Positions 1 through 58,025 of a stretch of DNA of 64,000 nucleotides are shown here, piece by piece (positions within the stretch are counted from its first letter, which is position 1; each line of letters begins with the position of its first letter). The stretch comes from Blattamonas nauphoetae. Taxonomy: Eukaryota > Preaxostyla > Oxymonadida. The translations under genes were made by a program, and so were the position numbers. The notes below the pieces were generated by a model. It saw only the letters and a program-made list of their open reading frames with translations. It had not been told where the DNA came from and ran no database searches. The DNA lies in assembly GCA_033064195.1 (NCBI GenBank), contig JARBJD010000095.1:171716-235715 (forward strand), read 5' to 3'.

Positions 1-2061
1 CTCGGACGAGATTGTTGATGAGGGCAGAATCCGAGGTTGGGGTTGGCGAATCCTCCACCGACTTTGGGATGAAGCAGAACGGATTCACAAACCGGCCGTA
101 TCGATTGAAGAAGTGGGAATATCGATGCATGTTGATGTATTCGTTGGTTGTGATGTTCCGAGTCATTTGGTAAAGATGCGAGGAGAGTAAGTTGATAGTG
201 AAGTAGATCATGAGAAACCCAACACCGACAAAGAGGAGAGAGAGCGGACGGCGGACGAGTGAGTAGAAGACCATCTTGATCACCCTGATGAAGTACGAAT
301 CCCACAGCCACTTCCAGAATCCCTTTCGCTCGGTCGGAACCGGAAATCGGATTTTGAATTTGTTGCTCATGTCTTGCCAACACATGAACTGCCACAGAAC
401 GAGGAGGACAGTGACAGTCACGACGAAGAGGAGGAAATAGTGGTAGTTCTTCTGCCCAACACAATTGTTCAGCCAGCCGCAGTGATGGTCAAACCGACTC
501 ACACAGCAGCCGCAGATGGAGCAGTGCTTCGAGCGGAGGGGACGAGGAGTGCGGCAGGTGAAGCAGAGAGGGACTGGGCACCCTGCATCGAGGATCGCGT
601 TGAACAACTCTCTTTGGTTGGCGTGCTCGTAAATGTTGAATGACATGGTGTCTTCTTGCGACAAGAGGAGTGCCTCGCTGTTCTGCGGTTTCTGCGTGAA
701 CGGCCCAGGAAGAGCTTCTGAAGTGAAGGGTTGGTAACGCTCCCGATTCGAATACTGCGACACAGAAGAATGGGGGACATCGACGTGGCTTTGGCCCATG
801 CTGCATCGAAGAGGGAGGGAAGCAGAAGGATTGGTCGACGCTCGAAGTGCGTGACGACTCGTGTGTCGACGAGAATTCGTGAGGTTGTGTTCGTGTGGAA
901 TCTTTCGTTTGACGCAGGAGTTTGGGAGTGACTCAGATGATGATCGTGGGATGCGGCCTGGGTCAGCGAAGACAGCGAGGAAGAAGAAAGAGACTGCGGG
1001 AGGAATGAAGAGAAAGAAGACGATGCGAACAACCAAATCGAGTTTAGTGACCATCCTTTGGAGAAGAAGGAAGTGAATCAGAAACGCGAGCGACATCACA
1101 AATGCAATGAATGCTGCCGATGAGAAAAGAGAACGTGTTGTGCCTTGAAATTGGAAGATATTATCATTTTGAACAAGTTTTATGGTTGAATTTTTAGACT
1201 TTTGTGTTTTCTCTTCGTTTTTAGCGAACTCCATAGGCGTCCGTCCTTGCCGATCAACTGAGGAGAGGGAGGCTCCATTCTCCAGAAGAACACGAGTGCA
1301 CAATGTAAGATCTCTTGATAGAGCCAGATGCAGGGGCGTATGGCCTTGTGAATCTTGGTGCTCGACAAGCGTTGGAGGAGGAGCAGTCTCATCCTCGTTG
1401 GGAGGGGGGTCGGACGGGGGAAGGGAGAATGTTCGTGCTTGAGGGGCAACTGACCAAGAAAACGCACGAAGAATGAGAAGAACTGCAGCTGGGTTCCCAG
1501 AAATAACTGCATGGTGCAACGGTGTCCGTTTCATGGTGTCACGAGTGAAGCGAGCTCCTTTCCGAATCTACAAGAGAATACAGAACAGAAATCGAAATAA
1601 ACCAGATATTCACACGACAAAACATTACCAGCGTTAGCAGCGTGCATTAAAAGCGTTCTCCGCTTGTGATCTGTGTAGTGAAAATCACCTCCATGTCCAA
1701 GGAGAAAATGAAGAACAGGAACGGTTCCACTTTTGGCAGCTATAGAAACAGGTGTTTCTGATAGTTCGTGTGAATATTTATTGGGATCTGCACCTAGGTT
1801 AACGAGGTATGAGACCATGAAGAGATTGTCTGCTGCTGCTGCCCAATGGAGTGCAGTCCAGCCTTTTAAGTCAGTAGTATCCAAAGAAACACCATTTTGA
1901 AGTAGAAAATCGATCATTGACTTGTTTCCTCGTTTAGCAGCCCGGATAAATGACTGTTGTTTTTGAAAGATGTTTTGCCGAGAAAGGATTTCAAGTTCGT
2001 TCTCCAAATCAGGTACATACTCAAAAGGATCTTCATTTTCGTCGGTTTCTGACTCGGTCAT
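1..2061 (-). CDS. Ankyrin-repeat DHHC palmitoyltransferase (C-terminus beyond window)
   Basis: Predicted S-acyltransferase that transfers palmitate to cytosolic cysteines of membrane proteins; the ankyrin plus DHHC layout resembles HIP14/ZDHHC17. From the ATG at 2061 the exons are 1624-2061 and <1-1567, with a 56-nt intron (donor GTTTTG, acceptor GTAG). Ankyrin repeats fill about residues 50-250 ([25 protein letters not shown]). Two membrane segments and the family's DPG motif follow (about 290-345). The Cys-rich domain with its HC..C pattern leads to the catalytic DHHC at about residue 504 (complement of 479-490), then NNCVG..NY and two more membrane segments. The position after DHHC is Gly where Pro is usual. 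The ORF is still open at base 1, so the C-terminus is missing. The 5' part is AT-rich and the 3' part GC-rich. Confidence 0.9.
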
Positions 2062-2252
2062 TCCAGTCTCGTCAAGATGAGGAGAATTTTGACAAAAAAA
2101 TGAAGTGGGCCATTCACATGGGGTGATGGGAAAAATGAGAATAAAATAAACCAATTTTCGCTTGTCTTGACAATGAAGAAGAAAATGATAATTATTTCTG
2201 AAAAAAGAAGAAGAGTTCCATGAAATTGACAAATACAAAACAAGGAGTGTTA

Positions 2253-2942
2253 TCACTTTGCCAGACTGGAATCCCATGACCGAGAATCATTATTTCTAAT
2301 GACAAGCGAGCCACTTTCTTTGGAATATGTCATCCGGAGAAGGCAGCAACCAGCAAAAATTTCTCGGCCATCGAGGTCTTCCCGTGCCAATTTTGCATGT
2401 TCAGGAGTGTCCAATTCAATTAAAATCTGGACTCCGTTGGCGTAGAATAGAACTAGACGCACAAGTCCGTATGTATCAAAAATTGTTCGGATGAGTGGAA
2501 TTGTTATTGGATGGATGGGGTTGTGGACAGTTGCGAGAAGAACTTTTTCACCACGATGCTCAATTACATCTAAATAAGAAGATCCGGAAACAAAAAATGA
2601 CAGACGCCTGAGATATGGCTTTTCTCTGTTGACTGTTTTTGTTTTCGAGAATTGGATGTTGTAAACGAAACCATCAATTTCAAGTGGTGAAGATTGAATC
2701 ATATTGATCACATTTTGAGCAATATTTGCGTTTTCCATTTCGATAAGTGCCTGTCGGTTCTTCGGAACCGGAACAACATAAACCACTTTTCCGTACATTG
2801 ATAAGAAAGAAATGATCGGGGGAAGATATGTCGCGCAATCTGCGTTTGTTTCACATTTGATATGCAAAACTTTAGAAGACTGATTCTGCATGCGACTATG
2901 GAAAACACTTGTCACTGGGTTGATCTTTGACTGATCAACCAT
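2253..2942 (-). CDS. PTB/hnRNP L-like protein with two RRMs
   Basis: Single-exon 229-aa protein. RRM1 lies at about residues 25-105 and RRM2 at about 128-215. The end of RRM2 (CCLLRMTYSK, then NNDSRSWD) matches the PTB/hnRNP L signature, in which an RRM ends with LRI.FSK and is followed by a NNDKSRD-like stretch. Such proteins bind pyrimidine-rich RNA and act in splicing, polyadenylation or translation; here the target is unknown. It has two RRMs where animal PTB has four, so it corresponds to the N-terminal half of the family. It ends 191 bp before the start of the DHHC gene on the same strand. A role in the short pyrimidine-rich introns of this genome is possible but unproven. Confidence 0.75.
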   Translation of the reverse strand: MVDQSKINPVTSVFHSRMQNQSSKVLHIKCETNADCATYLPPIISFLSMYGKVVYVVPVPKNRQALIEMENANIAQNVINMIQSSPLEIDGFVYNIQFSKTKTVNREKPYLRRLSFFVSGSSYLDVIEHRGEKVLLATVHNPIHPITIPLIRTIFDTYGLVRLVLFYANGVQILIELDTPEHAKLAREDLDGREIFAGCCLLRMTYSKESGSLVIRNNDSRSWDSSLAK

Positions 2943-3076
2943 GGATATCCTGATTAACGATAGATGAATGAGTAATTTAGGTTTAAAATAAAAAGGTCAA
3001 GAATCAAGATTATCAAGTCTGGAAAAAGAAGACAAATACGCAAAACAAGAGTAAGTTTACCTCTCATCCACTCTCA

Positions 3077-4633
3077 TCAATCTGGATCAGGTGGAGGTTG
3101 AGCGGCGGGACGTGCTGCTTGCCGCTGTCGTCGCCTCACAAGGTTCACATATTGCATCGGTTGCTTGAAAAAGTCGACAACGTGGAACAAAAAGTTGTCG
3201 ACCTTCTTCTCTTCCTCCGGCCGTTCGCCAATTTCGAACTGTCGGTCGATGTCCTTCATCTTTTGCTGATCGAGCGGCTGGTCCGGATGGTTCCGTGTCC
3301 ACTCCTGGATGAACTGCTCCCGAGCCCTGGTCAGGCGCTCCATGCGGTCCTTCTCCTCGTTCGAGTACATCGGACACTTGCCTGTCTCTTCCTGTTGGCC
3401 GGCTTCAGTGAAGTGAGCATACGCGTCGTTAGAAGGAAGATCAATGCCACAGCGAAAGCAGAAGTTGGTCTTGCAGCGCGGACACGTCATTTTGTTGCAG
3501 CCAACTGATTTCTGCACAGGCACTTTGCATTTTGGGCAGTTTGTGATCAGCGCCTCGCTGAGACAGTTTTGATACTCAGCCACAAAAGAAGGGGCTTCGA
3601 GGCGAGGGCAGTTGTGTTCGTCCTCGATCTTCTGCTGGCAGAGTCGGCAGAACTTCACTCGACAGTTCTGGTTCGGACACACAATCTCTGTCGAGTCGAA
3701 GCCTTCGGTGTCGATGAGGGCCTCGCAGAACGGGCATGACACGATGTTCTCCATCATCGAAATGATCTTCTGCTGAGCGTTCTTGTCCAGCCGTTCTCGC
3801 TCTTCCTCCGACAGCACCATCAGGATGACTCCCTCGACGTATGTACCTTCGCAGCCGGGTTCTGCTCCGCAAATGAATGGGTCTGCTTGTGAGTCGAGTT
3901 GACTGATGATGTAGTCGTGTGTGCACTGCTTGCAGAGGATGTGCATCTCTGAACATTGGACAACATCGTCGTAAGGTTTGTCTTCGTAACAAATAGGGCA
4001 AGTCACAAATGTCCCTCCTGCTTCGTTGTACTGCCTCACAATTTCTTGCCGTTTTATGTATCGTGAATGAATCTTCTCGATGAATGAAAGTTCTTCCAGG
4101 AATGCATCACTCGGGACACCTGGAATCTGTGGCTTCCTATTTCCTGTAATAAATTTCCCTTTAAATTCTAGAATGGAAAAGGTATCCCCGTCAATTTCGA
4201 TGTTCTGGTCGATATATAGGACTGTTTTCAGAAGTCGGAAATTATTCTCGCGAAAGATTTGTAAGAGGAGGAGTGTTTCAATATTCGGGTATAAATTGGT
4301 GATATAAGATGCAGAAACATTTCTATAGGAAATATCATCCATTTCTGTCGCCTCCAGATACTTCTCATAGTCTGACGGGTTGGGATCTTCCGAAACAGTG
4401 ATGCGTGGATAGTCTCCATTCATTTTTTCCAAAACAGATCCAAGTTCTCGTGATAGTGCAATATTGAATGGGAAAATTCCAATCATTTGACGGAGATAGG
4501 AGGTGTCGATTAACGGGAACTGAATTCTGAGGAGAGAGACAAGTGTGTCTGGATTTTGATCAAGAGTCGCTGGCGCAGCTGGAAATGAAAGAGTGGAGAG
4601 AAGTCCAGATGGAACAGTCTCTCTTCGTAACAT
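3077..4633 (-). CDS. RBR (RING1-IBR-RING2) E3 ubiquitin ligase, RNF216/Triad3-like
   Basis: Single-exon 518-aa RBR-type E3, which passes ubiquitin through a catalytic Cys before the substrate. RING1 starts with CPIC at about residue 212 (complement of 3990-4001). The IBR region contains CPFC and CPNQNC..KFCRLC. RING2 begins CPKCKVPVQKSVGCNKMTCPR and ends NFCFRCG. The Cys in KSVGC (about residue 379) aligns with the catalytic RING2 cysteine of the family, so the enzyme looks intact. The C-rich spacing resembles RNF216/Triad3 more than parkin or HOIP. The N-terminal 200 residues are not recognised. The tail after RING2 is charged and Pro-rich (ends PPPDPD). The first 600 nt are visibly AT-rich, the rest GC-rich. 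Confidence 0.9.
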   Translation of the reverse strand: MLRRETVPSGLLSTLSFPAAPATLDQNPDTLVSLLRIQFPLIDTSYLRQMIGIFPFNIALSRELGSVLEKMNGDYPRITVSEDPNPSDYEKYLEATEMDDISYRNVSASYITNLYPNIETLLLLQIFRENNFRLLKTVLYIDQNIEIDGDTFSILEFKGKFITGNRKPQIPGVPSDAFLEELSFIEKIHSRYIKRQEIVRQYNEAGGTFVTCPICYEDKPYDDVVQCSEMHILCKQCTHDYIISQLDSQADPFICGAEPGCEGTYVEGVILMVLSEEERERLDKNAQQKIISMMENIVSCPFCEALIDTEGFDSTEIVCPNQNCRVKFCRLCQQKIEDEHNCPRLEAPSFVAEYQNCLSEALITNCPKCKVPVQKSVGCNKMTCPRCKTNFCFRCGIDLPSNDAYAHFTEAGQQEETGKCPMYSNEEKDRMERLTRAREQFIQEWTRNHPDQPLDQQKMKDIDRQFEIGERPEEEKKVDNFLFHVVDFFKQPMQYVNLVRRRQRQAARPAAQPPPDPD

Positions 4634-4826
4634 GTTGATGTGATCCTTTCCACAAGAAATTCCAATTCGGATTCAAGAGTGTGACATCAGAAATTATGAA
4701 TTATTCACTTTCACACGATATAGACAATAATTTAGAGGTCATAAGAGATCAAAATACGAACAATTGGATGGTCGAAGTGATTAGAACAAAGAAAAAGTAA
4801 GATGATGCGTGAAACGATTGAACCCA

Positions 4827-7544
4827 TCAATAATCACTATCTTCGTCGTCCATCTTCCAAAGAGACAAAATCTTGTTCAATTCTCGTTGGCGTGCCTGCT
4901 CAGTCGAGGTCTCTCTTTCATGGCGATCATTGAATGGTCGCTTTGGAGGAGACCGCTCGGCTTTCAGCGGGCTGTCCCGTTTGACTCCGAATGTCCGTCT
5001 TGGCATGAGCTGGACTTTGGACTTCTCCGCACGAGGAACATTTGACCGAGGCAGCAATCGTCCATCGTCGAAATCAGAGCTGGGAGAGCGAGAATGTGTC
5101 CGAGGCTCGTTGAACGAGACACGAGGGGGGCTGCGGAAGGGAGAATTGGACGAGACTGATTGGTGACGCAGGGGTTTCGCTTGGCGAGAAGGTGAGGAAG
5201 AGTGAAAGTGTGAAGACGCACTTTGAGAACGGCGTTGTGGTGAAGATGAGTGGTGTGAGTGGCGAGACGGCGTGTGGCGAGAATGAGACGATTTCGAACG
5301 CCTGCTGTGGTTGGAAGGGGATCGCTGAGAGTGCGATGAGCCCGAGCGATGTCTGTGCGACGACGAAGAGTGATGCTGAGAGGACGGTGATTTGTGTGGA
5401 GATCGTCTGTGCGGGACTTGGCGGTGTTCGCTGTGTGACGTGTGGGTTCTGTTGACATTCTGCTGTTGGGAGAGACGAGATGGCGAGATTGGGGGACGAG
5501 CATGCGAGGGGGAGACAGGAGGCCGATGTTTGGTGGGAGAGGTGGAGATCGCCCGCCGCGTGGGAGTGATTGTGGTGGTGTGTCGAGGAGGGGTGATGGA
5601 GTGAGGGGCGTAGTGTGGAGGGTGTGGGTGTGAGGACGTGTACAGGCTGTTGATGAACGACCTGCTCAGAGAATGGCTGGGAGGTGTGGTGACTGGCCTG
5701 AGTGTCGTTCGAGGTGGAGTGAAGCGTGCGGGGAGTGGCGAGGGCGAGAGGGTGAAGGTTGATCCGAGTGTGTTCATCGTCGAATTCTGGGCGACCCTGT
5801 GTCGATCGGGACTGGCGTGTGTTTCTTCTAGAGAAGGCGGGTGGTGTGGAAGCATCTCATCCAACACCGAAGGGAGATCCGACAGAGGAACCTCCAGCGG
5901 CTCTGTTGCATCATGCTGTGGACTGGGTGGTGTCTGAACGAGCGAGGACGGGAGAGGCGGCGGGCTGAACTGCCGATTGAGTGGAGGAGTGCTGTGCTGC
6001 AGACGAGAGGAGAACTTGGCGAGCAGCTGGTTGAGTGAATCGTTCACAGTGGACAGGTTTGCGTGGAGATACTCTCCGCGCGTGTCGTCGTTCATGAAGT
6101 GTCGGGAATACGGCGGAAACACAGGAGCACGGTATTGGGTCTGAGTTTGAGGGGGAGACGTTGAGAGTCGTGTTGGGCTGAGCGCTGCTGGGAGAGAACC
6201 TTCGCTGGGAGGGTGCTCAGAGAGGAAGGAAATTTGAGGGTTTGGCTGTTGGACAATTCCCACATCTGGTTGTGGTTCCATCGAGGCAGGAACCTCGAGC
6301 TGCTGTTTGATGTGCCCATCCACAGAAATTCGGTTGAGTTGAGACGGCGTTGGCATTTGGCCCAATTCTCCATCCTGCTGGGCCTTCTTCAGAAGGGGGT
6401 GCTCCCGAAGAGGGAGAATTTGGGACGGATCTGGAGGGGAGAATGGCTTGGGGGCGAACGAGATTTGGATCTGTGGTTTTGGTTTGGTGGGCGATGGCGA
6501 AAGCTGTCGTTTGCGGGTTGGAGTTGAAGACGTCGATGGTGTTCGCGTTGGGGATTGGGATAGCTTTCGTTTCTGCTTGCTTCGCTTCGGTTTGGATGGC
6601 TTTTTCTTGGGAGGCTCTTCTGCTGTCCAAGCTTCAGGTATTTCCTTCCAAACTCGTTCAGCATTTGATGGTGTGAGATCCATCGCTGGGGGATGAGTCA
6701 TTGTCTGAAACGGGACCTGATAATCCTTCTTTTTCTTCTTCGGTTTGTCAAGACCAGGATCTTGATAAGTGACTTGATTTCCCAGAAAATAATCAGTAAG
6801 AGCCGGTTCTGTTCCAAGGTGAAACACTAGTGAGAGTTTGGGAATGATGTCTGTGTGATTGGGAGAGAATTCAAAGCAGCTTGGAGAATGCTGATTATTC
6901 AATGGATTTCGGAGAGGTATAATTTTCTCTGTTTCAACAACAGTGGCTTCTATTTGTTTTTGCCGTGCTTTGTCGTTTTCTGCTTTTCTCTTTTTGTTTT
7001 TGGAAGACTTTTGTGTCATGTTGTCAAAAGCTTCTAATAAAGAAATCCCAGAACGAGTTACAGGAACTTGAGCAAGTCCAAGGAGGATATCTATCAATTG
7101 ACTCGATGAATTTGAATTTTCATTCTCAGACAATTCGGGCTCAGAGAATTGTACATCATGGAAGGTTGGTCGGCGAACTTTCCCCCAAACTTCAACAATC
7201 ACAATGTGTTGATGAACTCCTGGAATAGTTGAGGTTGAGTTCAATGACGAGTTCATTTTTCTCACATTATATGCTTCAATGAGATGATCGGCTGTGAAGA
7301 CGACGTTATGGTAGAAGAGTGGTGATTCAGCCGGGGTGAGTTGTGATTGAAGTGACGGTATGGCGTATTTCGGTTTGATGTTACTTTTTATTTGAGTATA
7401 GAATGAGTCAATCGTACATTGGATAATCTCCTCATTGTCAGGATCGATGTCAGGGAAAAGAGTAGATGGGAGAGAAACATGGAGAGGTTGGTCAGCAAGT
7501 GTGGTTATCGTCAGAGAAAAATGCATTGTTCCGATTTGTTTCAA
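4827..7544 (-). CDS. Unknown 905-aa protein with long Ser/Pro/His-rich disordered tail
   Basis: Not recognised. Uninterrupted 905-codon reading frame. Residues 1-150 look folded (alternating hydrophobic stretches, ending HIVIVEVWGKV). The remainder is low complexity: Lys-rich patches at about 180 and 270-340, then Ser/Pro/His/Thr-rich sequence with many SP, TP and RS/HS dipeptides at about 600-830, and a short conserved-looking acidic C-terminus (LWKMDDEDSDY). SP/TP density suggests proline-directed phosphorylation, and the RS-like stretch resembles splicing or nuclear-speckle proteins, but composition alone does not set a function. It lies between the RBR gene (194 bp) and the next minus-strand gene (144 bp). 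Two other ATGs within the first ten codons are possible starts. Confidence 0.65.
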   Translation of the reverse strand: MKQIGTMHFSLTITTLADQPLHVSLPSTLFPDIDPDNEEIIQCTIDSFYTQIKSNIKPKYAIPSLQSQLTPAESPLFYHNVVFTADHLIEAYNVRKMNSSLNSTSTIPGVHQHIVIVEVWGKVRRPTFHDVQFSEPELSENENSNSSSQLIDILLGLAQVPVTRSGISLLEAFDNMTQKSSKNKKRKAENDKARQKQIEATVVETEKIIPLRNPLNNQHSPSCFEFSPNHTDIIPKLSLVFHLGTEPALTDYFLGNQVTYQDPGLDKPKKKKKDYQVPFQTMTHPPAMDLTPSNAERVWKEIPEAWTAEEPPKKKPSKPKRSKQKRKLSQSPTRTPSTSSTPTRKRQLSPSPTKPKPQIQISFAPKPFSPPDPSQILPLREHPLLKKAQQDGELGQMPTPSQLNRISVDGHIKQQLEVPASMEPQPDVGIVQQPNPQISFLSEHPPSEGSLPAALSPTRLSTSPPQTQTQYRAPVFPPYSRHFMNDDTRGEYLHANLSTVNDSLNQLLAKFSSRLQHSTPPLNRQFSPPPLPSSLVQTPPSPQHDATEPLEVPLSDLPSVLDEMLPHHPPSLEETHASPDRHRVAQNSTMNTLGSTFTLSPSPLPARFTPPRTTLRPVTTPPSHSLSRSFINSLYTSSHPHPPHYAPHSITPPRHTTTITPTRRAISTSPTKHRPPVSPSHARPPISPSRLSQQQNVNRTHTSHSEHRQVPHRRSPHKSPSSQHHSSSSHRHRSGSSHSQRSPSNHSRRSKSSHSRHTPSRHSHHSSSPQRRSQSASSHFHSSSPSRQAKPLRHQSVSSNSPFRSPPRVSFNEPRTHSRSPSSDFDDGRLLPRSNVPRAEKSKVQLMPRRTFGVKRDSPLKAERSPPKRPFNDRHERETSTEQARQRELNKILSLWKMDDEDSDY

Positions 7545-7688
7545 ATTGGATCAAAACGAAAAGAAAGAAAGATGGGTTCTCGGATCAATAATCATGATGA
7601 TTCCCGATACTTTTGCAATAATTTATCTCAGAAAATTGGAAAATAACGAGGCCACCAGGAGAAAAGGAGGTGAGGAGATGAATTCAAG

Positions 7689-30890: not shown

Positions 30891-31722
30891 TCAATCATCA
30901 TAAGCACTATCTGACCAGACATTGTCCTCATCACTTTCTTGTTCGGGAGCAGGTGACGGCTCCTGAATCTCTTCCTGGAGAGACTGAGGAGATGGAGACG
31001 ACAAACCTGTGTGAGTTGATATGTTCGGATATTGGGGAAGACAGGCAAATGTGGAAGGATGGCTGTTCTGTGGGATGAGATGAATGAGGCATTGATGTCA
31101 GTGATTGGCGATATGAATGGGTTGAATGGAAGTTGTTGGATGTTCGAAAGAGGGGTGACGTCGTATCTTGAATAATGTGGAATATCTTGATAAAGGCATC
31201 ATAGGAAAGCGAGAGAAGTCAGACTGTAGGGGAAATGAACATCATCATTGACGAGGCGGGCTCTGAATAGGAAGAGTTCTTGGAGATTAATTCCAAGTTC
31301 ATCGAACCCAACAATAACATCTGTGTCATTAATTGTATCTCTTGACTGAAATTGTGCAATTCTTCGAATGGTTCGTCCAAGAAACCGGACATCTACACGG
31401 TTGAAAAGATGTGGCGAATAAAAATGAGTAGAAAGAAAAAAGTGGAAAATAAAGGACTCAAACAGTGACGGACTAACGATATGAGGACATTAAGAGGTCT
31501 TTGGTTTATAGAAAAGAAGTTAGCGTTCTTTGCGAGCGTCGCAATAGTAATAGCACAGAGACGAGAATAGAACTGTTCGATCAGTCTTGGTTTCACGTCA
31601 ATGATCTCAAGATCAGTGCAGTCATCTTCATGTTCTTCTAGAAGTGGTTTTTGGGCGCTGAACATAAGAGTAGCCCTTAACACAACTTTCAAGTTCACAA
31701 ATTTGTGAAGGGCTGGCCACAT
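30891..31722 (-). CDS. TAF3/TAF8-like protein with bromo-TP histone fold
   Basis: Predicted TFIID subunit. Exons 31464-31722, 31225-31392, 31007-31185, 30891-30983 (introns 71, 39 and 23 nt) sum to 233 codons. The joined sequence gives a BTP histone fold: an early helix (about residue 50-75), then LNVLISLVRHYVRFLGRTIRR, then a DVIVGFDELGINLQEL segment. That last part parallels the TAF3 arrangement DDVGEAFQLMGVSLHEL. Shortly after comes a VHFPYNIPHY segment, like the FPHQIP part of TAF3. The acidic C-terminus (ESDEDNVWSDSAYDD) is short, and no PHD finger is encoded. TAF3 versus TAF8 cannot be decided. The start codon is 46 bp from that of the acyltransferase gene on the other strand. Confidence 0.65.
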
Positions 31723-31768: not shown

Positions 31769-33019
31769 ATGGGTCATTCACTCTTGTATCGCATCGCCAC
31801 CAGAGGTAAACCAAACAATGAACTTTACCAAAAAATACAAAGCCACCCAAAATTAAGTGCATATCTTCATGTTTACCATGATCTTGTCTGCTGTTTTCTA
31901 TGTCCGCATGGCTGTTTTATTATCTTGTAACAGAGACCAATTGATTACTTCAAACGCATCATTTTCCCTGGTCCAATCATCGCTATCATTCGAATTCTTT
32001 GGTATATATTGCATTTCGTTTTGCTCGCGATCCTTCAACGAATTGTTTACATCGGTGTAAATGTATGCATTTCTTCTTTCTAGAGTTCTCTCCTGCTACA
32101 GCTGAACGATTTTAATGTTCCTCCCCCAAAATGGCGCCGACGCCTTTCACAATGGATGATGTGCTATATCTCAGCGATTACGTTCCCAGCTGCAGGCATT
32201 TATCGCCCTAAGATCATCGACCACACGAAAGACAGGCCAAAATCTACAGAAGCAAAAGATCTGCCAAGATATGAATGGGACCAGCCATGGTGCATTGTTG
32301 CGAATCATCAGTCATTTCTTGACGTTATCCATGCAACAGCTGTTCTTGGATATCCATCTACAATGACAAAAGACGTTCTCTACAACGTTCCATTTCTTGG
32401 CATTGTTTTAAAGGCCTCTCGTAACTTTGTTCAGTACAGGAGCAAAACAAAGGGGGATAGGCCGTCTTCATTTGCCCAACTTCAAGACAGGATGAAAAAC
32501 CCGCAAGAAAGTATCCCATTCTTCATCTTCACCATTCTTCTTTGAACAGACGATTTCTCTCCTCTGGTCTATGGTGAAGGAACTGTGGGGAATGGAACGT
32601 GTATTGGCAGATTCCATAAAGGCCCATTTACTGCAGGGCTCCCTGTTCGTCCAGTCGCCATTTCGTACCCGTCTAAGCATTGTTCATTGAACACAGACAC
32701 CATTGAGTTCCTTCCCTGCGCCTATGATATCACCACCCAGTTCGTTAATCGATTCCAGCTTGAAATATTCGATCTCTACATCCCAAGCGAAGCAGAAAAG
32801 AACGACCCACAGCTGTACGCAAACAATGTGGGGACACTCATCGCCAATTCACTCAACATTCCATACAGGCCAGATATCGATTCTCGGTACAAGTTTATCA
32901 CAAGGGATCTCGCGCGAGGGAAGATCACATGGGAACAGGCGATGGAGAAGGTTGATGAATTGGAAAACGGCCAAACTGTGTCTCCAGCTGACACTCAACT
33001 CAACAAAAAAGTTGACTAA
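31769..33019 (+). CDS. LPCAT/AGPAT-type lysophospholipid acyltransferase
   Basis: Membrane enzyme of the PlsC superfamily, transferring acyl-CoA to a lysophospholipid. Exons 31769-31885, 31934-32062, 32084-32510, 32550-33019; introns 48, 21 and 39 nt; 381 codons. A hydrophobic segment (IIAIIRILWYILHFVLLAIL) at about 55-80 anchors the protein. Motif I is NHQSFLD (HxxxxD) and motif III is GEGT where PlsC enzymes have PEGT. The region GRFHKGPFTAGLPVRPVAI and the later YIPSEAEKNDPQLYANNV resemble LPCAT1 (FKPGAFIPGAPVQPVVL; SPSEEEKRNPALYASNV). The C-terminal EF-hands of animal LPCAT1 are absent. Both catalytic motifs are intact, so it is likely active in phosphatidylcholine remodelling or a similar reaction. 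Confidence 0.85.
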
Positions 33020-33130: not shown

Positions 33131-34302
33131 TTATGGCACATCAATGCTTTCGGTCATCTTGCAAGTGATGCCTCCATTCGTAGTCGTCGCATCGAAGATG
33201 AACGAGTTGTGGATTGGATAATTCTGTCTTGTGATTGAATTTGCGATGTCTTGGGAGAGTAAACCTCCCACAATCGATGATAAAGCTGGAATTGGTGGAT
33301 TTATCGGTGGTACTGCTTGTGTAATGAGCGATGAGAGTTCATTGGTATCTAGTTCTGTGACTTGATTTTGTGGAAACTTACGAATGTATTCTAGTGTTCT
33401 ATCGGCTAGATGAATGAAGAAGGATGAAAGTCTAAACCTCGAATTGACGTAAGCATCTTATTAGCTGCTATGAATTGACTGTTTTTGAGTCTGGGTGGTT
33501 GTGTGGCTGTTCGTTTTTTGAGAAGCCACATCTCATGAAAGGGCTGATAAGAGAACGAGTCGAGGGTGATATCCCATTTGAGTCTGGAATTATCGATGAA
33601 GACGATGTCTGAGTCTTCATCAGACTGTTCATCCTCATCATCATCGTCGATAACAATAGCGTCCTTAATAAGTACTGGATTGGTGTTAGCTTGTCGTTTT
33701 CCTGTTCGGGGTTCGATAAATTTTTCGTTGAACAACTTTGTTTTCTGTGGGCTGTGATACGAGACGAAAAAGCTGAGAAGAGAGCGAGTTTCGGCATAGA
33801 AAAATGACTTTCCATGATCAGTACAATGGAGGGACAGTGTAAAAGCATATTCTTGTGGAAGATTGACGCAGGCCACAACAGTAGCAGACGAGAGTGTTGT
33901 GATGATATCTGGATGTGTCGGTGGATATGTCCGAAGGTCTTCAAATGAATGCTGAAGCGACGTCACAGAACAGAATGTGTTCATGCTAGCAAGCCTATTT
34001 GACAGAATAGAAGCCCGCTGGAGAGGGAATGAAAACGGGGATGAACAAACCGGACTTCCAATATCTTCTACCGTAAAATAGAAGTTGGTTTGGACATCGT
34101 CATTATCAATCATTCCAGGATCCCAGAGTACAATAGAGTGGACTCCGGCTAGAGTGAGATTTTTGGCTGTTTCCATTGAAAGACCATTCACACCAACAAT
34201 GAGAACAGAACTTGCTCGAAGATCATGTTGTGCTTCAACACCCCAGAGTCTTATCTGTCTATCGTATATTGCAGCCTCAGCATCAGTAATGTCTCCACTC
34301 AT
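33131..34302 (-). CDS. SAE1: SAE1/AOS1, SUMO-activating enzyme subunit 1
   Basis: Non-catalytic half of the SUMO E1, partner of UBA2, which adenylates SUMO. Exons 34051-34302, 33438-34017, 33131-33405 (introns 33 and 32 nt) make 369 codons. The N-terminus EAAIYDRQIRLWG is the E1 family hallmark, followed by the nucleotide-binding stretch VLIVGVNGLSMETAKNLTLAGV and the crossover strand. The last third carries the family ending: IVGGLLSQDIANSITRQNYPIHNSFIFD, equal to VVGGIL.QEIVKALS....NNFFFFD in animals. An acidic run (DDDDEDEQSDEDSD) sits in the linker that is acidic in other AOS1. The 33-nt intron is a multiple of three without a stop. The gene ends 111 bp from the convergent acyltransferase. 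Confidence 0.88.
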
Positions 34303-36257: not shown

Positions 36258-36669
36258 TTGTTTCATTTGCCTCAACGTGCAATGACTCTACATGATCAAT
36301 CGACCGTCAGTACTCACGAAAGCCACTCCAAACTAGCTCTCCAAAAAACGCTGTCTTCTTATCTTTCTCGTCTTGACTGGTTTTTTGGAACGGCATCTAC
36401 TCGTTCAGATCTCGTAAATCGCGTCATTTTTGGTTTTTCTATGTTCCTTCTAATCAGTATTCTTCTCATGTACTCGTTGCTTATCGGACACGAAATTGAC
36501 AGGCAAGTAGATGTTGTTCCTTATTCAGACTTTCCTCTCATTGACGGGTTCATCCCTTTGCCGAGTCGAGCTTTATGAAGAGCAAGCTCTGGTTCCTTGT
36601 CTCAGAACGAAAAATGATGGAGAGCAAAAACTTGTTCCTTCTGATTGGATGGTGCTGATTTCTCTATGA
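36258..36669 (+). CDS. Small single-pass membrane protein, unknown
   Basis: Exons 36258-36506 and 36529-36669 with a 22-nt intron (GTAGAT..TTCAG) make 130 codons ending at TGA 36667-36669. Without splicing the frame would stop at 36578 in Pro/Leu-rich sequence; the spliced tail is more protein-like. One clear hydrophobic segment lies at about residues 53-75 (VIFGFSMFLLISILLMYSLLI), and the N-terminal side is Ser/Thr-rich. After the membrane span comes a Cys-containing segment of about 45 residues (SSLCRVELYEEQALVPCL). A second ATG at codon 9 is an alternative start. I do not recognise the family. It could be a small ER or tail-type protein. Confidence 0.5.
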
Positions 36670-43352: not shown

Positions 43353-43374
43353 GATGGATTTTGCTTGGTAAGAA

Positions 43375-44605
43375 GTGAGAGCAAACAGTACCTCTCCAAC
43401 ATGGGTCGATCAAAATCCCAGCCATCTCCATTCAATGTCTCTCACAAAAAATAAATCGTACACATGCAATTTGCCAAGTCCTAAACCATTTATCACACGA
43501 TACTTCAAGCATAGATTCGTCACTGGTTCTCTCTCCTTTCTCATTAAATTCACTTATCTCTCAGATGTATCGGCAAAATATTGCCTCGATCAGTACCAAT
43601 TCATCCATTCTAATGGGTATTTACCTCCATTTTGTTCATCTCTTCCAATTTCTCTTCATCACAACTCTTCTTTCAGTCTAATCGTTGTCGGTCTCGCACC
43701 AACTCATCCTGCACTCCTTCCACCACAATATCGCTTGCAATACAATGTGCATCCAAAAACTCCAGAACACTTCTCTAATTTTGAATATCTTACTCGTCTG
43801 GACTTTCTCAATGTGTTATGATCTTTATCTCTTACAGAAGAATCTTACGAAGGATATTCTATTACTAAAGTTGATTTTGGAGTTGGTTCAGCAAACCGTG
43901 AGCAACAAACAATCCGAGGAAAGAAGAAAAGAGTATCTCCCCCTTTTCATTCATTCACTGGCAGGGCGCTCTCTTCATCGAACCGAATACCGTCATTTGC
44001 CACATTCACACGTCTGGTGGGGCCGTCTACTCGTTCCACTCGTGCATTAGTGGGAACCTGTTTGAGATCAACACCCAGCTCACCCACAATCCGAATCTAC
44101 TCCTCACAAATGTATGCTCTCTTCCTCGCTCATGCCACAGCCCTCTACGATTGGATATATTGCCATACTCTCGCCCAGACGGGGATTTTTGGATTCTGTT
44201 CGATATCTCTCTCCATTTGAGTATCTCCACCACACCACGAGGCATCGCCATCAAAAGCACATTTCTCCTTTCTTTGAACCATCTATCCTCGCTGCAGCTG
44301 AGCGCAGACTCGCTGAACTTCCCCAGGAACAACCTTTGGAAGAAGCTCACGCCACACTCCAACCACAGCCGCCGATTGACGATTCGACCCACCCCAACCA
44401 GCCCATCAAACGAGAGGAGTCCTCGTCTGAGACCACTTTCGATGTCGTTGCGGCGAGTGCTTTTGCGTGTCCCCGGACAGATTGTCCGACACGACTCACT
44501 CACGAGTCACTGTTCCAATTTTTCAGCAATAAGGGAAACAAACAGTGGCAGAAGAAATGGATGAATGGTTTGGGGATGTTTGAATCTGAGAAAGCTTCAG
44601 GTTAA
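43375..44605 (+). CDS. ABITRAM: Abitram (FAM206A/Simiate) homologue
   Basis: Six exons: 43375-43525, 43565-43616, 43677-43795, 43838-43932, 43965-44111, 44141-44605 (introns 39, 60, 42, 32 and 29 nt), 343 codons from 43375. A second in-frame ATG at 43435 is closer to the family's N-terminus and leaves 83 bp to the divergent cyclase-like gene instead of 22 bp. Family blocks: ITRYFKHRF..DVSAKYCLDQYQFIHSNG, then APTHPAL, GRALFIEPNTVICHIHTSGG-like core, ISGNLFEIN, and PSTIGYIAILSP. Animal Abitram is a small GcvH-fold protein linked to actin binding and transcription. This one has about 100 extra disordered residues at its C-terminus. Confidence 0.82.
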
Positions 44606-44780: not shown

Positions 44781-45736
<956 letters not shown>

Positions 45737-47016: not shown

Positions 47017-47815
47017 ATGGCTGATCAAGAAGCCCTCATCGGAATTCCGAATTCAGAACGAGAGGTCTTGCAATATATTCTCTATTTGTTCAGGCTCATC
47101 GCCTCAGGATGCGAAAAATTGTGGAGGAAGTGACTAAATCAATTCCACACCACACCGACCCTGAAACAGGTGAAATTGTGTATGAGACAAAGAAAAAGAA
47201 AAACGGACCATGGGGCTGCCGTATTTTCGCGATTCTTATGTTGGTAGCTCTCTTCTTCATCCTGAAATATACGCCGTACATTGCGATCGTCACAGATGAA
47301 GAGAAAACTCACAAGTGTCTCTTTTTTTAAAGATGTTCAAGACTTCAACCTCTCTCTAATCATTTCTAGAATTCCAATGCGGATCGGACAACTTGGGTTG
47401 TCTATTTTTGTGATTGCTGAATTGTACATCCAATTCAGAGAGAAGAAGACATTCAAAGATACCGACGTTTGCATTATCTTTCGTACACGATGATCAGGAT
47501 CTTATGGAGAAGTATTATCCGATAATTGTTTTTGCCACCATCACAGGTCTCGTGACAATTGTCAGGTCTGCCATTCATTTTCTCAGACGGTTCAGTTATA
47601 TAATTGCACTTTGGCCTGCGTTCAGTGGATTGTAGGTTCATTTTTACTCTGATTTTTCTAGTTCTATACTGATCGTGTTTGGATTTGTCATACTCATCAT
47701 CGCTTGCACTTTTCTCCTTCCGCGGAAGGCGAAGGAGACCACAGAAGAGGGGCAGACAAATCAGGATATCACTGATGTTCCTTTGGATGACCCTAATCAT
47801 GAGGCAACTCAATGA
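47017..47815 (+). CDS. Unknown multipass membrane protein (217 aa)
   Basis: Exons 47017-47064, 47094-47314, 47370-47466, 47498-47631, 47662-47815 (introns 29, 55, 31 and 30 nt) add up to 218 codons. Four to five hydrophobic segments: FAILMLVALFFILKYTPYIAI, IGQLGLSIFVIAELYI, YYPIIVFATITGLVTIV, and a long C-terminal one (YIIALWPAFSGFSILIVFGF..LIIACTFLLP). Both ends are charged and probably cytosolic; the tail is acidic (TDVPLDDPNHEATQ). No family is recognised. It shares its upstream gap with APH-1 and lies head-to-tail with another membrane protein, but a joint role is only a guess. Confidence 0.65.
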
Positions 47816-48046: not shown

Positions 48047-49143
48047 GGCAAATGATAATCGCGATTGGTGGAAGCCGACAAAGAAGACTTTGAGGAGAAC
48101 TTCCCTCTGCTGGGTTGTTCTTGGACTCATCCTCATTGTTAGCCTTGTGTTGTCATTCGGATTCATTTTCCGCCGGCCCCTAAATGAAGAGAATATCTTC
48201 GCATATTGGCCTTTCCCACTCCTCTTTTCAGTGAGAGGATCGTACAAGCCGTCAGTTCGACACTTGTTTTGTTTTGATGAACTTTTCGGTTATAGATCAC
48301 TACTGATGATTGCATCATTTATGGAAGTCGTGAAGACTTCTCTACAAAGCTCGTAAATCTGACTGCAAACAAACCACTTCCGGCTCAATTAGAGACACGT
48401 ATCTCCTTCCATTCCACATTATTCTTCAGGTGGTTCAAATTTTAGTTATTGTGGAAGCATGCATTTCCGATCGGGACACACGTTTATGGTCACCACCCCC
48501 GAACTTACCGAATCAACCTCGTTCACATTGAAATACGTGTGCTCACGCATCATAATTCATATTTTGTGTAGTTCAATGGAACTATCAGAGAATTTGATGG
48601 GGAAAAAGGCAAACCACTGAATTTTAGCTTCAGTATTCCGGATGCATCTCAAAAGTTGGAAATATGTGCAGTCAACCTCACCGAAGAACAAATCGCAAGC
48701 AGAAAGAAAGAAGATCTCATTTTCACGATCGACATTCCTTACGAAGGTCTTACTTCTGAAACATTGTCCACACTCAGACAATGTGGAAAGCCGTCGTGTA
48801 CAGGCGATCTATATTATTATGCATATGCTCCAGACAACCGCGACTTCTGCCTCTTTTATTTCGCAGTTTGTTTCTGCTCTTTTTTCAGCCATTCAAACAG
48901 GAACGAGTCCCCATATCCATCGTCCTTCTCCTTGGCATTGCCCCATTTGCTGTGGCTGTCCTCCTCTCTTGCATCTTCTCATTCAAAACTACAGTTGGTT
49001 GTATGGCTTATCCATGCTATAGTCGGATGGGGTCGAACAGGGGAGAGTTTGTCCGTCTCGCCGCCTTTGAAGAACCAGACTTCGACGGAACCCTTCAAAT
49101 GTCGGAGATTCAGGATGAAGACCTCCCGCTGGACCACGTGTGA
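48047..49143 (+). CDS. Unknown two-TM protein with Cys-containing lumenal domain (start unresolved)
   Basis: Five exons are consistent: 48047-48254, 48296-48398, 48430-48536, 48572-48865, 48889-49143 (introns 41, 31, 35 and 23 nt). The first exon begins in phase 2, so an upstream exon with the start codon is missing from my model; an ATG at 48001 is in the wrong phase. The order is a basic segment (KPTKKTLRRT), a TM helix (WVVLGLILIVSLVLSFGFIF), about 180 residues of beta-rich, Asn-X-Ser/Thr-containing lumenal domain (LVNLTANK, AVNLTEEQ, FNGT) with scattered Cys, a second TM (ISIVLLLGIAPFAVAVLLSCIF) and an acidic cytosolic tail. It looks like a glycosylated membrane protein of unknown family. 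Confidence 0.6.
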
Positions 49144-50748: not shown

Positions 50749-51068
50749 GACATGAAAAGATCCGTTAAATACTAGAATATTTCAAGAGATAGAGTCTGAA
50801 AGTGCGATGTCTCGAAAAGAAGTTTTGTGACGAAAAAAAACAATTGTGGATTTTCTTTCCATTCTAACGTGCCCTTGAGAATAAATCTGAATTTGCATCA
50901 AAGGACTCAATGAAAAAGGTTCTCTTGGATGTGAAGCAAAAAATCGGAAATTCACACATGAAATGTCCCGATAAAGAAAAGATGAGGAAGATGACTTAGT
51001 CCTGTCTATTACGTAAAAATCCTTGTTTCAATTTTAGGTGGTATTCTGATTGAGGACAGTGAGATGAA
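50749..51068. other. AT-rich intergenic stretch
   Basis: No gene, RNA or repeat could be supported. The sequence is AT-rich and A-tracts are frequent. It lies between the start of the SPRY-like gene and the remnant proteasome gene. Confidence 0.6.
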
Positions 51069-51500: not shown

Positions 51501-51557
51501 ATGTGAGAAATGTGTGATGACAATTTAATGTGGTTGGATCAATTTCTGAATCCTATG

Positions 51558-52103: not shown

Positions 52104-52344
52104 CCCTCGCTCACCCGTCCATAAACTGATCAATTGTTGTATTTGGAGCTCATAAGCGACCTTTTCGCGACAGACGCACCAGTAGAAGCCTCTTTCTTTT
52201 TTTCAACACAAATCATTGTAATTATCAAGATAATGTCTCGTTACATTCCCTGTGTCAGGTCAATGACCGGCAGCGTCCATCTTGTTGGTGCGATTGTTTT
52301 TCTTGATCTGTCAAACATATCGATGGGTTTGATCAAGAACTAAG

Positions 52345-53025: not shown

Positions 53026-53189
53026 ATGTCACAGCCGAACAGAACGAAGAACACTTCATTTTCATCAATGGGTCAGTTTTTCTACAAAAATGTTTAGCGA
53101 CCAATTTTGCAACGAGATTAAACTCTTGAATTGAGCTTTTCTTGAGATCTTGACTCGTTTCAAGGGTTGATCGAGTTTCTCACCATTGT

Positions 53190-56100
53190 ATGAGCATGTA
53201 CCACCCATCCAAATATGGCGTTAGGTTTTTTCACATTGTTCTCAAGATATTCTCCTTGTATTAGACCGTATCAATCATCTAAGCACAAAGGGAAGAAGTC
53301 AGTCGCTCAACAACAACTTCTTCAGGAAGAACTGAAACAACAAGAAAGACGAGGGGAGATCCAGAAAGCAGAAGAAAAACTTCGATCTATGAGTGATCCA
53401 AAGTACCTCCAACCCACATATTTCAGTCTGACGGAGGCCCTCACAATTGTGAATGCTCCTGACAGAGATGCACGAAGAGCAAAACTCCAAGACAGTTATA
53501 ACTCTGTCACTGAGTATCTCAAAGAAGTTGTCTCGGGTATATTTTTTCCGCTCTGACTCATTTTCACATCAATTCCAGGAAATTATCGAATGTTTACGGA
53601 TTCCATCGGCAATTTCACAAACATTTTCAACAATATCTCCACTATCTCTGAAAATCTTGGTACCCTCGACAGTAGATTGTCCCAATCAGAAAAATTCTTC
53701 TCCTTCAACGCTGGTGGACTCGAATCAAGATTCAAAGATCTTCTTTTGTCGGAAACAATCGAGCGATTCATTGGAACAATAAAATCGCTATTCAAAGCCA
53801 AAGAGATGATTCAGGCATTGGAACAATCTTCGCTGTTCTTTACATCTGCGAAGCTGATCAACTTGGCCTCACAAGAATTAGATCGTACTCCCCTCAAGTC
53901 CTTGAATCTGATGAAAGAAGCAAATGAATTCTTTGCCATGGAGCCTCAGAATCTCAAGTCCGAGATTCTTGAACAATACCTCAGCTTCATCTTCCGAAGG
54001 CCCCAATGGAATCTACCTGACTACCTCCCCAATGAAGAAACGAGCTCCATTGAAAACGATCTCGATGCACTGCATCTCTTCCTATTTTTCCTGAGTCACA
54101 CTCCTGTTGGACAGAAAATGAATCTCCCAATGGATTTATCGTTCCCACAACTTCACATCTTGAGATCCTTCACCCAGGCACTCCAAATGGCGAATTCGTA
54201 CGCCTACATTGAAGGATCAACAACCACCCTTAATACATGCATTTCTTTCCTCTCTTCTCAAGTTGAGACTCACATTTCGGCACAAGACCTCTCCTTCTCC
54301 CGTCTCGCTGCCCAACTCGACTCTCCCAAGAAGTCCGGAGAATGCAATTATCTCCTATCATTAATGCGTGCCCTTGTTGAGCTCGGAAATGCTCCAAGCA
54401 CACTCGCTGGAATGGGACCGGTCCTCCAAAATCACATTACATCCAGTTTAGCTGAAATTCTCCAATTGTATTGTGCACTCATGACTATGTCATCCACTGC
54501 TCTTGGAGCTGCTCCGTTCGCTTTTAGTGCTGATGAGACGTTCTCTCGCCATGAAATGCTCCTCATCATGAAGGATCTGACAGACACCTTCCAAACTCTT
54601 GTATCGGATAAACAGGCTGTTATTCTACCAGGCCTCCGTCGTATGACCCACACTGACGTCATTCAACGCATTCTAAAGACAGTCCTGTCACACTGTAAAA
54701 CCGGTCGTGATCGCTGCTCTATCCTCTATTCCCTCATCTTCTCCCATTTCACCCGCACTGCCATTCTTCTCAACCACTCCCTGATCGGTTTTGAATCCTT
54801 ACTCACCCCAAATAAGCGCCAGGGCTTTCACAGCAACGTTCGAATGGAACAGTATTCTGGATCGCTTACAGTCAATCTTATGGGTGAATTTACACTGATG
54901 GTGTGCACACTCTGCACGCAGGTTTTCGATGAAATACTTATGGTTCCCATAACCACCTCCTTGAACACTAAATTAAACCAACTCAAAAAGTTCGTTTCTG
55001 CCACTTTTGACTCAGCTTACCGAAAAAGTCTCGACCTTAGTGCAACCACATTCGGCTCCCTCCAAGCCAAGTTTGGTGATCCCTTCGCACTCGGCCTACC
55101 TGACGCCCCATCCAACTCCGACGATGTCAGCGATGCCGACGACGAGAACGACTCGCTCAACGGTGATGCCCTGGAGGACGACGACTTCTTCCTGGATCAA
55201 GAAGGCGCCATGCCATCGGGAGGCGGCTCATTGAAATCGTATCGTTCCACATACACACAGAGAGTGTCGGGCTTGTCGGGTTTGTTTCGGCTCAGCTCGC
55301 ATTCGTCGGGGGGATCCGGGCAGCTGGAAGTGGCTGTTCCCGGAGGCGGCCCAATCTCATTCAAACACGCTGTGACCAAACAGCACTCGAATCTGAAGTT
55401 TGTTGTGTCGACGTGGATCCGGCAGTTGTACAAAGGGTCGCCGAAGGCGTTTCTGATCATCACGAGGCGGATTGTGACGAAGTCCCTTCCTCCGTTCCCT
55501 GTCACCGAAGTGATTGAAGCCACACTTCCTGACATCAGCCCGGTCACTGCCAACCCTGATGGGAAGCGAAGTGTGATGACGAGAATCAATGCACGCATGT
55601 CAGTTCGTCCAAGCACAGGCGGCATCTTTCAAAGAATGAAGCTGGCCAAGTTCGCTGGAGTGAATTCAGCCTCGCCTGGGTCGAATGATGGAGAGAAAAC
55701 ACCGCTCTTCACATTCCACAACGCTACACAACCAGCATCGACCTCTCTGGAGATTTGTGGGATGGGAAGGAGTCCCAATCTGTCATCAATTGATTTGAAC
55801 AAGTCAGACACAATCAAATTCAACACACTCTCTCGACGCAGGCGAGCAGAAGACGGTCATTCCGTGTCACAACAACAAGAAATGATGCCGTCAGGCCACA
55901 TCCGAACACTCCGCTCCAAGTTCGGTGACAACGAAAGCGAAATGTCTGACGATGAGATCAGCCAGTACAGGGTCACTCCTCAATCAGAGACAACCACCAA
56001 CGACCATACGCGCTCGAAATCAACAACCACTGGCGATGCGATTGGGAAACACCAGCCAAACGCAATCATCGCCATCCGAACGATTCTGAACAATCCTGAC

Positions 56101-58025
56101 TCGGTCGGCTTCAAGTTCAGTTCGTCGAACGAAGCGTTTAAGACAAGCCGAATGTTCTCGTCAAGGCATCTGAAGCAATTGTCGAGCACATCAAGCGCTG
56201 TCACGCATGCCACGACACTCGCGTCTGCTCTTTTCAGCAAGCGACCGCCGCCTCCAAAGAAGGGACAGAAGGCACATGTCTCGTCGTTGGATGATTTGTC
56301 GAATCGATTTATGATTTTGTCATCTCCTTCCAATTCTCTGCCGCTTCTCGCTGCAACCAACATTTTCTTGTCAGTCACGGAGCATCTGCAGACCTCGACA
56401 GACATTCTCTACACAACCGACGACTCGTCAGCACAGGGAAAGAAGGAGTTGATTGGAGTGGTTGGGATTCGAGACGACTTGGACGACTACACACAAACAG
56501 CACTCCCAGCTTACCTTCGAAACAGTCTCCAGTTCCACGCAGAGACATTCATTTACTCAAAAGACGCCTTCACTGGACGCGGCAGCCGAACAGCGATGGC
56601 GGTCGAAGACGTTGGAGAAGAACACCTCATTGTCCGATCGTCGCTTGGAGTGATTGGGATGCTCACAGCTCTCTGCAGCTTGTCGTCTGACTGTCCTGTT
56701 GCTTTCGATTCGTTGAAGTACTCTTATCGAGCTGTGCTGAAGATGTTTATGAATGAAGTTCGTTCCTATGCGATCACTCCACTCGGAAAGAACTTCTCGC
56801 AACGAATGAAAGCAATGGACAAGACGAAGCTGACGATGATGATTCGAGAGGGCAATGTGGAGGGGGAAGGAAAGGTGATTATGGACGGGTTTGGGAACTA
56901 CGGTCACAGAACATGCAAACCGATCGATTTCCGAAAAATGTACACGTGTGCGTTGCTTGTTCGCAGCATTGGATGGATGACACGACGACTCCTCTCTCTC
57001 CCTTCCATCCCAGCATCGGCTCTTCGCACCCTCGCTTCGACACACTTTTCGAGATTGGACTCTTCATCGATCTGGTCGGCACCAGCGTTCGTTCTTCAGC
57101 CTCCACTCAATGTCCCTCTTTCTGTGGCTGGACAACAAGCAACAGCAGCGTCAATCATTTCGGGTGAGCTGGACTCAGCACAAACAATGGCTCGTCGTCG
57201 TCCAGAATCGATCCAAACCAAAACAGGTGCTTTCCGATTGGGAGGATCACAAGGACTTCCAGTTCCCGTCAATCCACTCATCCCACAACCATCGGCCACG
57301 CAGATGATTGTGTCGCTGTTGGAGATGCTGACACCTGACATCGAAGAGATGATTCAGCTGCAGCAGGAGTTGTTGACCATCATCCGAGTGGAGATTCGCT
57401 TCTTCATTCTGTCGCAGCTGCATCTCGCGAATAAACAGGTATCTCTCCATCTCTTTTCATCCACCCCTCTCTTCTCTCTCCCCATCTCCACTCTCCTTCC
57501 CCCTTCATTCCCCTCTTCTCGCTCTCTTTCTTCAGGAGGACAATTTTCTCGAAGAAGACGCGACTGTCGAGCCGCACAAGCAGGTCGTTTCGTGTGTGAA
57601 GACGCTGATGCAGTACGGCGAGGATCTCACCCCAACCATCCTTCCTGATTACGCCGAGTATGACGCACATCCTTCTTCGCTTTTTCTTTTCGACTTGGAG
57701 TATCTTGAGTCAATCACTTCTTACTCGCCGATATTCTCGAACGTGTCTCATTCTCTCCCTCTTCTCTCCCACAGCGAAATCTTTGGAGGCCTTGATGACT
57801 TCATCTGCTCGTATTGCATCACGTCCACCCAAAACATTCAGAGGATCAATTCGAAGGGTCTTCAGAAAGTGTGTTTTCAGTTCAACCGTTCACCCATTCT
57901 TCACACAGCTCCGTGGCAATATCTACACTCTGCAGCAGTCCCTCAATACAATCTACCCGCAGAAGTTCCATAACTTCGATCCGGCGCACAAGTACTACAA
58001 CAAACTGGCGCTGGATCTGCAGTAG
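53190..58025 (+). CDS. EXOC4: Exocyst subunit Sec8/EXOC4
   Basis: Component of the octameric exocyst, tethering secretory vesicles to the plasma membrane. Exons 53190-53224, 53247-53536, 53579-57438, 57536-57657, 57775-57868, 57909-58025 (introns 22, 42, 97, 117 and 40 nt) give exactly 1506 codons. The N-terminus is helical (SVTEYLKEVVSGNYRMFTDSIGNFTNIFNNI) and matches the Sec8 start region with its small vesicle-tether helices. The C-terminal blocks QLQQELLTIIRVEIRFFILSQLHLA, IFGGLDDFICSYCITSTQNIQRINSKG and NIYTLQQSLNTI parallel the family's [40 protein letters not shown] and NIFVLQQNLTNI. A disordered acidic insert (about 560-640) and other spacers make it about 500 residues longer than animal Sec8. 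Confidence 0.8.

Follow-up and report, generated by a model that had tools for sequence, protein, structure and literature searches.

A uridine at the fourth intron position and a matching base change in the U1 snRNA genes of the oxymonad Blattamonas nauphoetae

The stretch of Blattamonas nauphoetae DNA considered here, 64,000 nucleotides (nt) of contig JARBJD010000095.1 (positions 171,716 to 235,715, referred to below as the window), was initially annotated as containing very short introns whose donor sites read GTNT in place of the common GTAAGT. The fourth intron base (+4) faces position 5 of the U1 small nuclear RNA (snRNA), which is a pseudouridine in humans and S. cerevisiae, and is then described as facing the central A of the ACAGA box in U6 (PMC10581693). 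If T at +4 (+4T; U in RNA) is a genuine feature of the donors, the question raised by this locus is what has become of the snRNAs that must recognize them. We found that the bias is real and that all three U1 genes detected in this genome have A at position 5 where U is usual (ACAUACC, not ACUUACC). The explanation that we favor, and consider probable, is that +4U donors and position 5 of U1 have changed together in ordinary U2-type introns of Blattamonas nauphoetae.

Donor sites of the introns

Fifteen introns could be placed with no use of the donor hexamer other than its GT, and these make up our secure set; 14 lie in four genes inside the window and one, in the gene for U1C, lies outside it. 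Eight of them were placed by deposited proteins of two genes in the window, P0001 (SAE1) and P0028 (BLNAU_11953); these match the window exactly when three and five GT-AG introns, respectively, are allowed for. The deposited gene models are described as having been made with Augustus, retrained on genes curated manually from mapped transcripts and conservation, together with intron hints from RNA sequencing (PMC10703272). The remaining seven introns were placed by homology, five in ADAT2 (TAD2), one in U1C and one in an acyltransferase gene. T occupies +4 in 14 of the 15 donors and C in the other (T in 13/14 inside the window), and given that the interior of the secure introns is 41% T, the binomial probability of such a count is about 4e-5. 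The acyltransferase junction is the least exactly fixed, and leaving it out gives 13/14. The neighboring positions are mixed, with A in 6, T in 5, C in 4 and G in none at +3, and G in 5, A in 4, C in 3 and T in 3 at +5. None of the 15 donors reads GTAAG or GTGAG, and none of the introns has a GT-AG alternative of the same length within 20 nt. The introns are 30-119 nt long (median 39). As for the acceptors, which had been listed as TAG, CAG or AAG, we observed CAG ten times and TAG five times; AAG does not occur in the secure set.

Mapping of P0001 places the SAE1/AOS1 introns, all on the minus strand, at 34018..34050 (GTTTGT, 33 nt), 33584..33625 (GTCTGA, 42 nt) and 33406..33437 (GTTTAG, 32 nt), the second of these being in frame and free of stops and its stretch missing from the deposited protein. 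A GTAAGT hexamer on the same strand (33376..33381) is retained in the exon and translated in P0001, in agreement with the initial annotation, which had left it unspliced. Mapping of P0028 places the BLNAU_11953 introns, on the plus strand, at 43526..43564 (GTTCTC, 39 nt; the sole secure donor without +4T), 43617..43676 (GTATTT, 60 nt), 43796..43837 (GTCTGG, 42 nt), 43933..43964 (GTATCT, 32 nt) and 44060..44178 (GTTTGA, 119 nt). The five ADAT2 introns, also on the plus strand, are at 44835..44881 (GTATAT, 47 nt), 44987..45019 (GTCTTC, 33 nt), 45381..45410 (GTATAC, 30 nt, the shortest in the set), 45490..45535 (GTCTGA, 46 nt) and 45637..45668 (GTTTCT, 32 nt). The spliced protein gives gapless alignments across all five junctions with two solved ADAT2 chains (3dh1 and 7nz7); gaps are present in the third alignment shown, to 7bv5 (TAD2), and only about three aligned residues follow the last junction, which is therefore more weakly fixed. 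For the intron with donor GTCTTC, an in-frame upstream donor, GTAACA, was ruled out because its use would remove aligned residues. Separately, a segment of about 70 residues (window 45101-45313), absent from the solved ADAT2 proteins, lies between the two conserved halves of this ADAT2.

The acyltransferase intron (32511..32549, plus strand, GTATCC, 39 nt) rests on a gain in the Pfam Acyltransferase score, from 31.8 bits for the unspliced frame 32084-32545 (profile positions 9-90 of 132) to 42.6 bits when spliced (9-132), which joins the exons and fixes the exact junction less well; comparison of this protein with solved structures gave no useful match. In U1C, the zinc finger is interrupted by a 95-nt intron (stretch L038, 1553-1647) with donor GTATAT. 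The spliced finger aligns without gaps to the solved U1C (2vrd) and scores 66.7 bits, compared with 30.4 and 27.8 bits for its separate halves.

A larger sample came from a hidden Markov gene model applied to 37 sources (315,873 bases) in a flat form, in which GT and AG were the only donor and acceptor requirements. It returned 194 introns, of which 190 are distinct (the 4 duplicates derive from repeated sequence), and 114 of the 190 have T at +4, compared with 44% T in intron bodies (p = 9e-6). T is less frequent at the neighboring positions (70 at +3, 56 at +5 and 81 at +6), and G is found at +5 in 52. GTNTG begins 38/190 donors but only 22/326 internal GTs of the same introns (Fisher p = 8e-6), while GTAAG and GTGAG donors are absent (0/190). 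The proportion of +4T is 42/67 in the window and 72/123 elsewhere, and it is 103/171 among required introns and 70/117 when a flank filter is added. After training, the model gave 225 introns, 213 of them distinct (12 duplicates), with +4T in 153, +5G in 100, GTNTG in 73 and GTAAG or GTGAG in 2; in an earlier run the final +4T counts were 89/140 and 91/140 from flat and GTAAGT starting donors, respectively. Because exact recovery of the secure introns was low (6/15 by the trained model and 4/15 by the flat one), all of these counts show where the bias lies and are not a gene annotation, and the percentages are rough and probably low. In the same light, the roughly 60 introns initially proposed for the window are plausible as a number, the trained model placing 71 there.

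In the models used above, intron composition had a T-rich start and was set from introns seen by eye, not from donors. A first version, with intron composition equal to the genome average, performed poorly: it missed obvious introns, had +4T in 35/94 before training, and gave about one half +4T after training from each of seven different starting motifs. Likewise, filtering by the coding score of the flanks proved too stringent at first, with 19 of 162 introns kept (+4T in 8/19, and in 10/17 after training).

One might suppose that pyrimidine-rich introns, combined with the earlier reader's preference for GTNT, created an artificial donor bias. The introns are indeed 41-44% T, and GTNT had been picked where two donors fitted. 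Against this, +4T reaches 14/15 where donors were not chosen by hexamer, and the flat model peaks in T at +4 and not at +3, +5 or +6. We attach next to no weight to this explanation.

The U1 5' end and its fit to the donors

The genome searched comprised 88,311,006 bases in 837 contigs. In each of the three U1 genes, (U)AACAUACCUUG takes the place of the Rfam consensus AUACUUACCUGG; the 5' end as it stands in the genes is UAACAUACCUUG, and the RNA expected from them would begin AACAUACC. The initial annotation had predicted a compensating snRNA change, and at the level of the genes one is present. The RNA aligns to the Rfam U1 model from end to end, keeps UGCACU, and folds into U1-like stem-loops with the 5' end free. 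A DNA search with the U1 body returned the same three loci and no other, with 147/147 bases identical in each. The U1, U2 and U5 genes have in common an upstream GTATAAAGGT-like element (GTATAAGGGT in one U5 copy, with a relative, CTATAAACGT, in U6) and a TTTGTCTGT-like 3' box shortly past the RNA, from which one U5 copy differs. In U2 a TATA precedes A1 by 29 bases, and with equal spacing the U1 RNA would start at AACAUACCUUG. Outside the window, at C61:86709-87774, two of the U1 genes stand in inverted orientation to each other, separated by about 750 bases, and the third is 50 kb away on the same contig; CTTAAT is found further upstream in both U6 and U1 genes.

It could be argued that the three loci are variant or silent copies and that the main U1, with a canonical end, was missed by the assembly or by our search. 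The U1 score, 67.6 bits, is just below the Rfam cut-off of 69.5, and only 41 of 1128 first-look candidates were scored. A canonical 5' end, by our reasoning, ought to have scored higher and not lower. Furthermore, (i) the two U1 loci checked contain no ACTTACC between bases 1350 and 1700; (ii) beyond -40, the flanks of two copies that we compared are only 33-34% identical (ungapped), and yet these copies do not differ over the RNA; and (iii) all three carry the promoter and 3' box elements common to U2 and U5. We regard a missed canonical U1 as very improbable.

The other snRNAs are of the usual kind. U6 is represented by two genes (88.1 bits each) with ACAGAG intact in both, and compensation in U6 was rejected since this RNA is canonical. 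Thus, when the donors are set beside the U1 5' end and the U6 box of their own genome, a comparison proposed in the initial annotation, U1 is changed and U6 is not. U2 has three genes above cut-off with a canonical branch-pairing GUGUAGUAUC (alignments for all three), and U5 has three above cut-off with a canonical loop 1, GCCUUUUACU, in all three (alignments for two). A different class of intron was rejected because U2, U5 and U6 are canonical where they touch the intron; a search for U12 snRNA (RF00007), run without a positive control, gave no genome match. The U1 small nuclear ribonucleoprotein (snRNP) proteins U1C, U1-70K (two loci) and LUC7 are present, as is Prp8. For METTL16 (PF05971) there was neither a match nor a first-look candidate in the 88.3 Mb, the same model having matched 5 of 14 control genomes, four of them over cut-off; METTL16 has likely been lost, although this is not proven. 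SNRNP27K (PF08648) likewise gave no genome match in a search without a positive control, using the same tool that found the intron-split, 38-position U1C finger.

The scenario that we favor is as follows. The introns would be of the major (U2-type) class, mostly 30-60 nt long and pyrimidine-rich, and their donors would have settled on GUHU (H being A, C or U), with +4U the most conserved base after GU. Replacement of the U (pseudouridine) at U1 position 5 by A would allow a Watson-Crick pair with +4U, and after handover of the donor to U6 the same +4U would pair with the central A in the ACAGA box, which is unchanged. In the usual spliceosome U1 favors A at +4 and U6 favors U; here, with A at U1 position 5 and ACAGA unchanged, both would favor U. 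It had been claimed that +4T upsets pairing to both snRNAs. This holds for a normal U1, with which +4U is a mismatch; it does not hold for U6, where +4U opposite the central A is a Watson-Crick pair. With A at U1 position 5, 14/15 secure donors are able to pair at +4, compared with 0/15 with U. That this U1 is expressed, matures to the form drawn and pairs with +4U is our inference. Loss of U6 adenine methylation, suggested by the failure to find METTL16, may have favored the shift.

In addition to the Rfam score of U1, several observations weigh against this scenario. The U1 5' end was placed from the Rfam alignment and from TATA spacing common with U2, and the folding energy of U1 beats that of shuffled sequences only modestly (z = -1.8; 9/200 shuffles at least as good). 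A is present at +3 in only 6/15 secure donors and G at +5 in only 5/15, such that many donors pair poorly even with the changed U1. Duplex energies over the 15 secure donors are -2.75 kcal/mol, compared with -2.47 with U at position 5 (better for 6, worse for 5), and a human-type U1 5' end scores -2.84. An advantage for the changed U1 is seen only in the 225 model introns (-2.97 versus -2.18 kcal/mol; better for 134, worse for 53), and the model behind them had learned +4T. Finally, the METTL16 control genomes were prokaryotes without split genes, and the SNRNP27K search had no positive control at all. Beyond +4, the changed U1 fits the donors no better than the usual U1, and the case rests on +4.

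Very short introns and other features of the sequence

The initial annotation also included several introns of 20-23 nt, which we found to be weakly supported: the trained model keeps two of the six named, and the secure set starts at 30 nt. The two that are kept, candidates at 30984..31006 (minus strand) and 48866..48888 (plus strand), both of 23 nt with donor GTTTGT, come from the trained gene model only. A candidate first intron of the acyltransferase gene (32063..32083, plus strand, GTATGC, 21 nt) keeps the frame, is not fixed by homology and was dropped by the trained model. The intron named at 36507-36528 starts GTAGAT, that is, without +4T, and at 53225-53246 another gene model competes. 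Among model introns of 24 nt or less, +4T occurs in 24/45 and the pyrimidine fraction is 0.56, compared with 0.68-0.73, and many of them are probably false. The predicted product of 47017-47815 gave no match in a protein search, and that gene model is probably wrong.

We had considered the scarcity of GTAAG in long reading frames (5 seen, compared with about 31 expected from synonymous shuffling) as a sign of donor avoidance, and rejected it, since CTAAG, ATAAG and TTAAG are also depleted and the pattern seems to reflect a general shortage of TAA-containing words. The near absence of GTAAGT donors is accordingly less telling by itself. GTGAG and GTNTG show no avoidance in exons. TAA-containing words across codon junctions (CCTAA, TAAGG, GTAAG and CTAAG) are rarer than synonymous shuffling predicts in the long frames of the sampled genome. 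Near the intron ends no TACTAAC-like branch site stood out, and the words TCAT and ATTCA are enriched there. Among the proteins, a family of about 400 residues was present in 5 of the 18 stretches returned (L013, L014, L015, L017 and L019); three scanned members had no Pfam match, and the family is possibly a lineage-specific expansion.

Comparison with other +4U systems

Giardia is a metamonad, and the donors of Entamoeba histolytica are GUUUGU-like. Donors of the GTNT type are not unprecedented, baker's yeast (GUAUGU) and the oxymonad Streblomastix being examples. In the Saccharomycotina, the shift from +4A to +4U is reported to accompany loss of METTL16 and SNRNP27K with U1 and U6 unchanged; the same survey describes the U1 ACUUACC as invariant where found (227/230 Saccharomycotina genomes and 9/10 outgroups) and proposed by name exactly the U1 change seen here, which was not found there (PMC10581693). 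Blattamonas resembles the budding yeasts in its +4U donor, its canonical U6 ACAGA and the failure, with imperfect controls, to find METTL16 and SNRNP27, and differs from them in having A at U1 position 5 and an apparently intron-rich genome. The yeast switch to +4U is reported where introns number fewer than about 600 (PMC11732430), whereas a single 64-kb window of the 88-Mb Blattamonas genome holds 14 secure introns in four genes.

These precedents bear on the possibility that the donors moved to +4U for U6 reasons alone, through METTL16/SNRNP27K loss as in budding yeasts, and that the U1 base simply drifted without a role in donor choice. Baker's yeast U1 keeps ACUUAC and tolerates the U-U mismatch with +4U, as does that of Giardia lamblia (PMC3510501), which resembles Blattamonas in having +4U in its donor (UAUGUU) and differs in its unchanged U1 and in having only 11 introns identified. 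METTL16 and SNRNP27 were not found in our genome search, imperfect as its controls were, and the pairing of U1 is weak at positions other than +4. On the other hand, U1 is ACUUACC throughout the yeast survey and ACUUAC in Giardia and the cryptophyte nucleomorph, and in the chlorarachniophyte nucleomorph the U1 recognition motif is described as fully conserved even though the introns there lack a donor motif beyond GU (PMC6461891). Moreover, the U1 base altered in each of the three copies found in Blattamonas is precisely that whose change would restore pairing at +4. Drift of U1 is in our view an unlikely account, and we continue to favor a joint change of donors and U1.

Changes in snRNAs at the +4 pairing site are known elsewhere. 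In Cyanidioschyzon merolae the central A of U6 is reported to be U (PMC10581693) and U1 to be missing (PMC6461891); the alteration lies at the same pairing site as in Blattamonas, but there it affects U6, and here U1 with U6 unchanged. Entamoeba histolytica, with donors like those of Blattamonas, is reported to be without a U1 snRNA (PMC13292270), whereas Blattamonas has one. Among oxymonads, the 21 introns described for Streblomastix strix have A, U and G conserved at +3 to +5, and the interaction with U1 was taken by the authors to be conserved (PMC1501061); those introns are 46-229 nt long, and the Blattamonas donors differ in having no clear preference for A at +3. Monocercomonoides is said, as data not shown, to have candidates for each of the five snRNAs (PMC6679479).

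Our literature search found no report of a U1 with ACAUACC in the full texts covered and, judged by titles and the opening lines of abstracts, none of such a U1 change among the matches listed; sequences within figures could not be searched and most subscription journals were not covered, so that priority is not proven. What was already known is the occurrence of +4U donors in yeast, Giardia and Streblomastix, and what appears to be new is the matching change at U1 position 5. Few RNA sequences are as conserved among eukaryotes as the 5' end of U1, and a U-to-A change facing +4, together with widespread +4U, amounts to a natural double mutant of the U1-donor pairing. It raises the questions of which snRNA drives donor evolution, whether U6 methylation is the first to be lost, and whether METTL16 and SNRNP27K are dispensable in an intron-rich genome. 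For the oxymonads as a group, we lean, with little more than even confidence, toward a history in which the conflict at +4 was removed by A at U1 position 5, METTL16 and probably SNRNP27K were lost, and thousands of introns moved to +4U without intron loss of the yeast type. If this is true, Streblomastix and Monocercomonoides should have the same U1.

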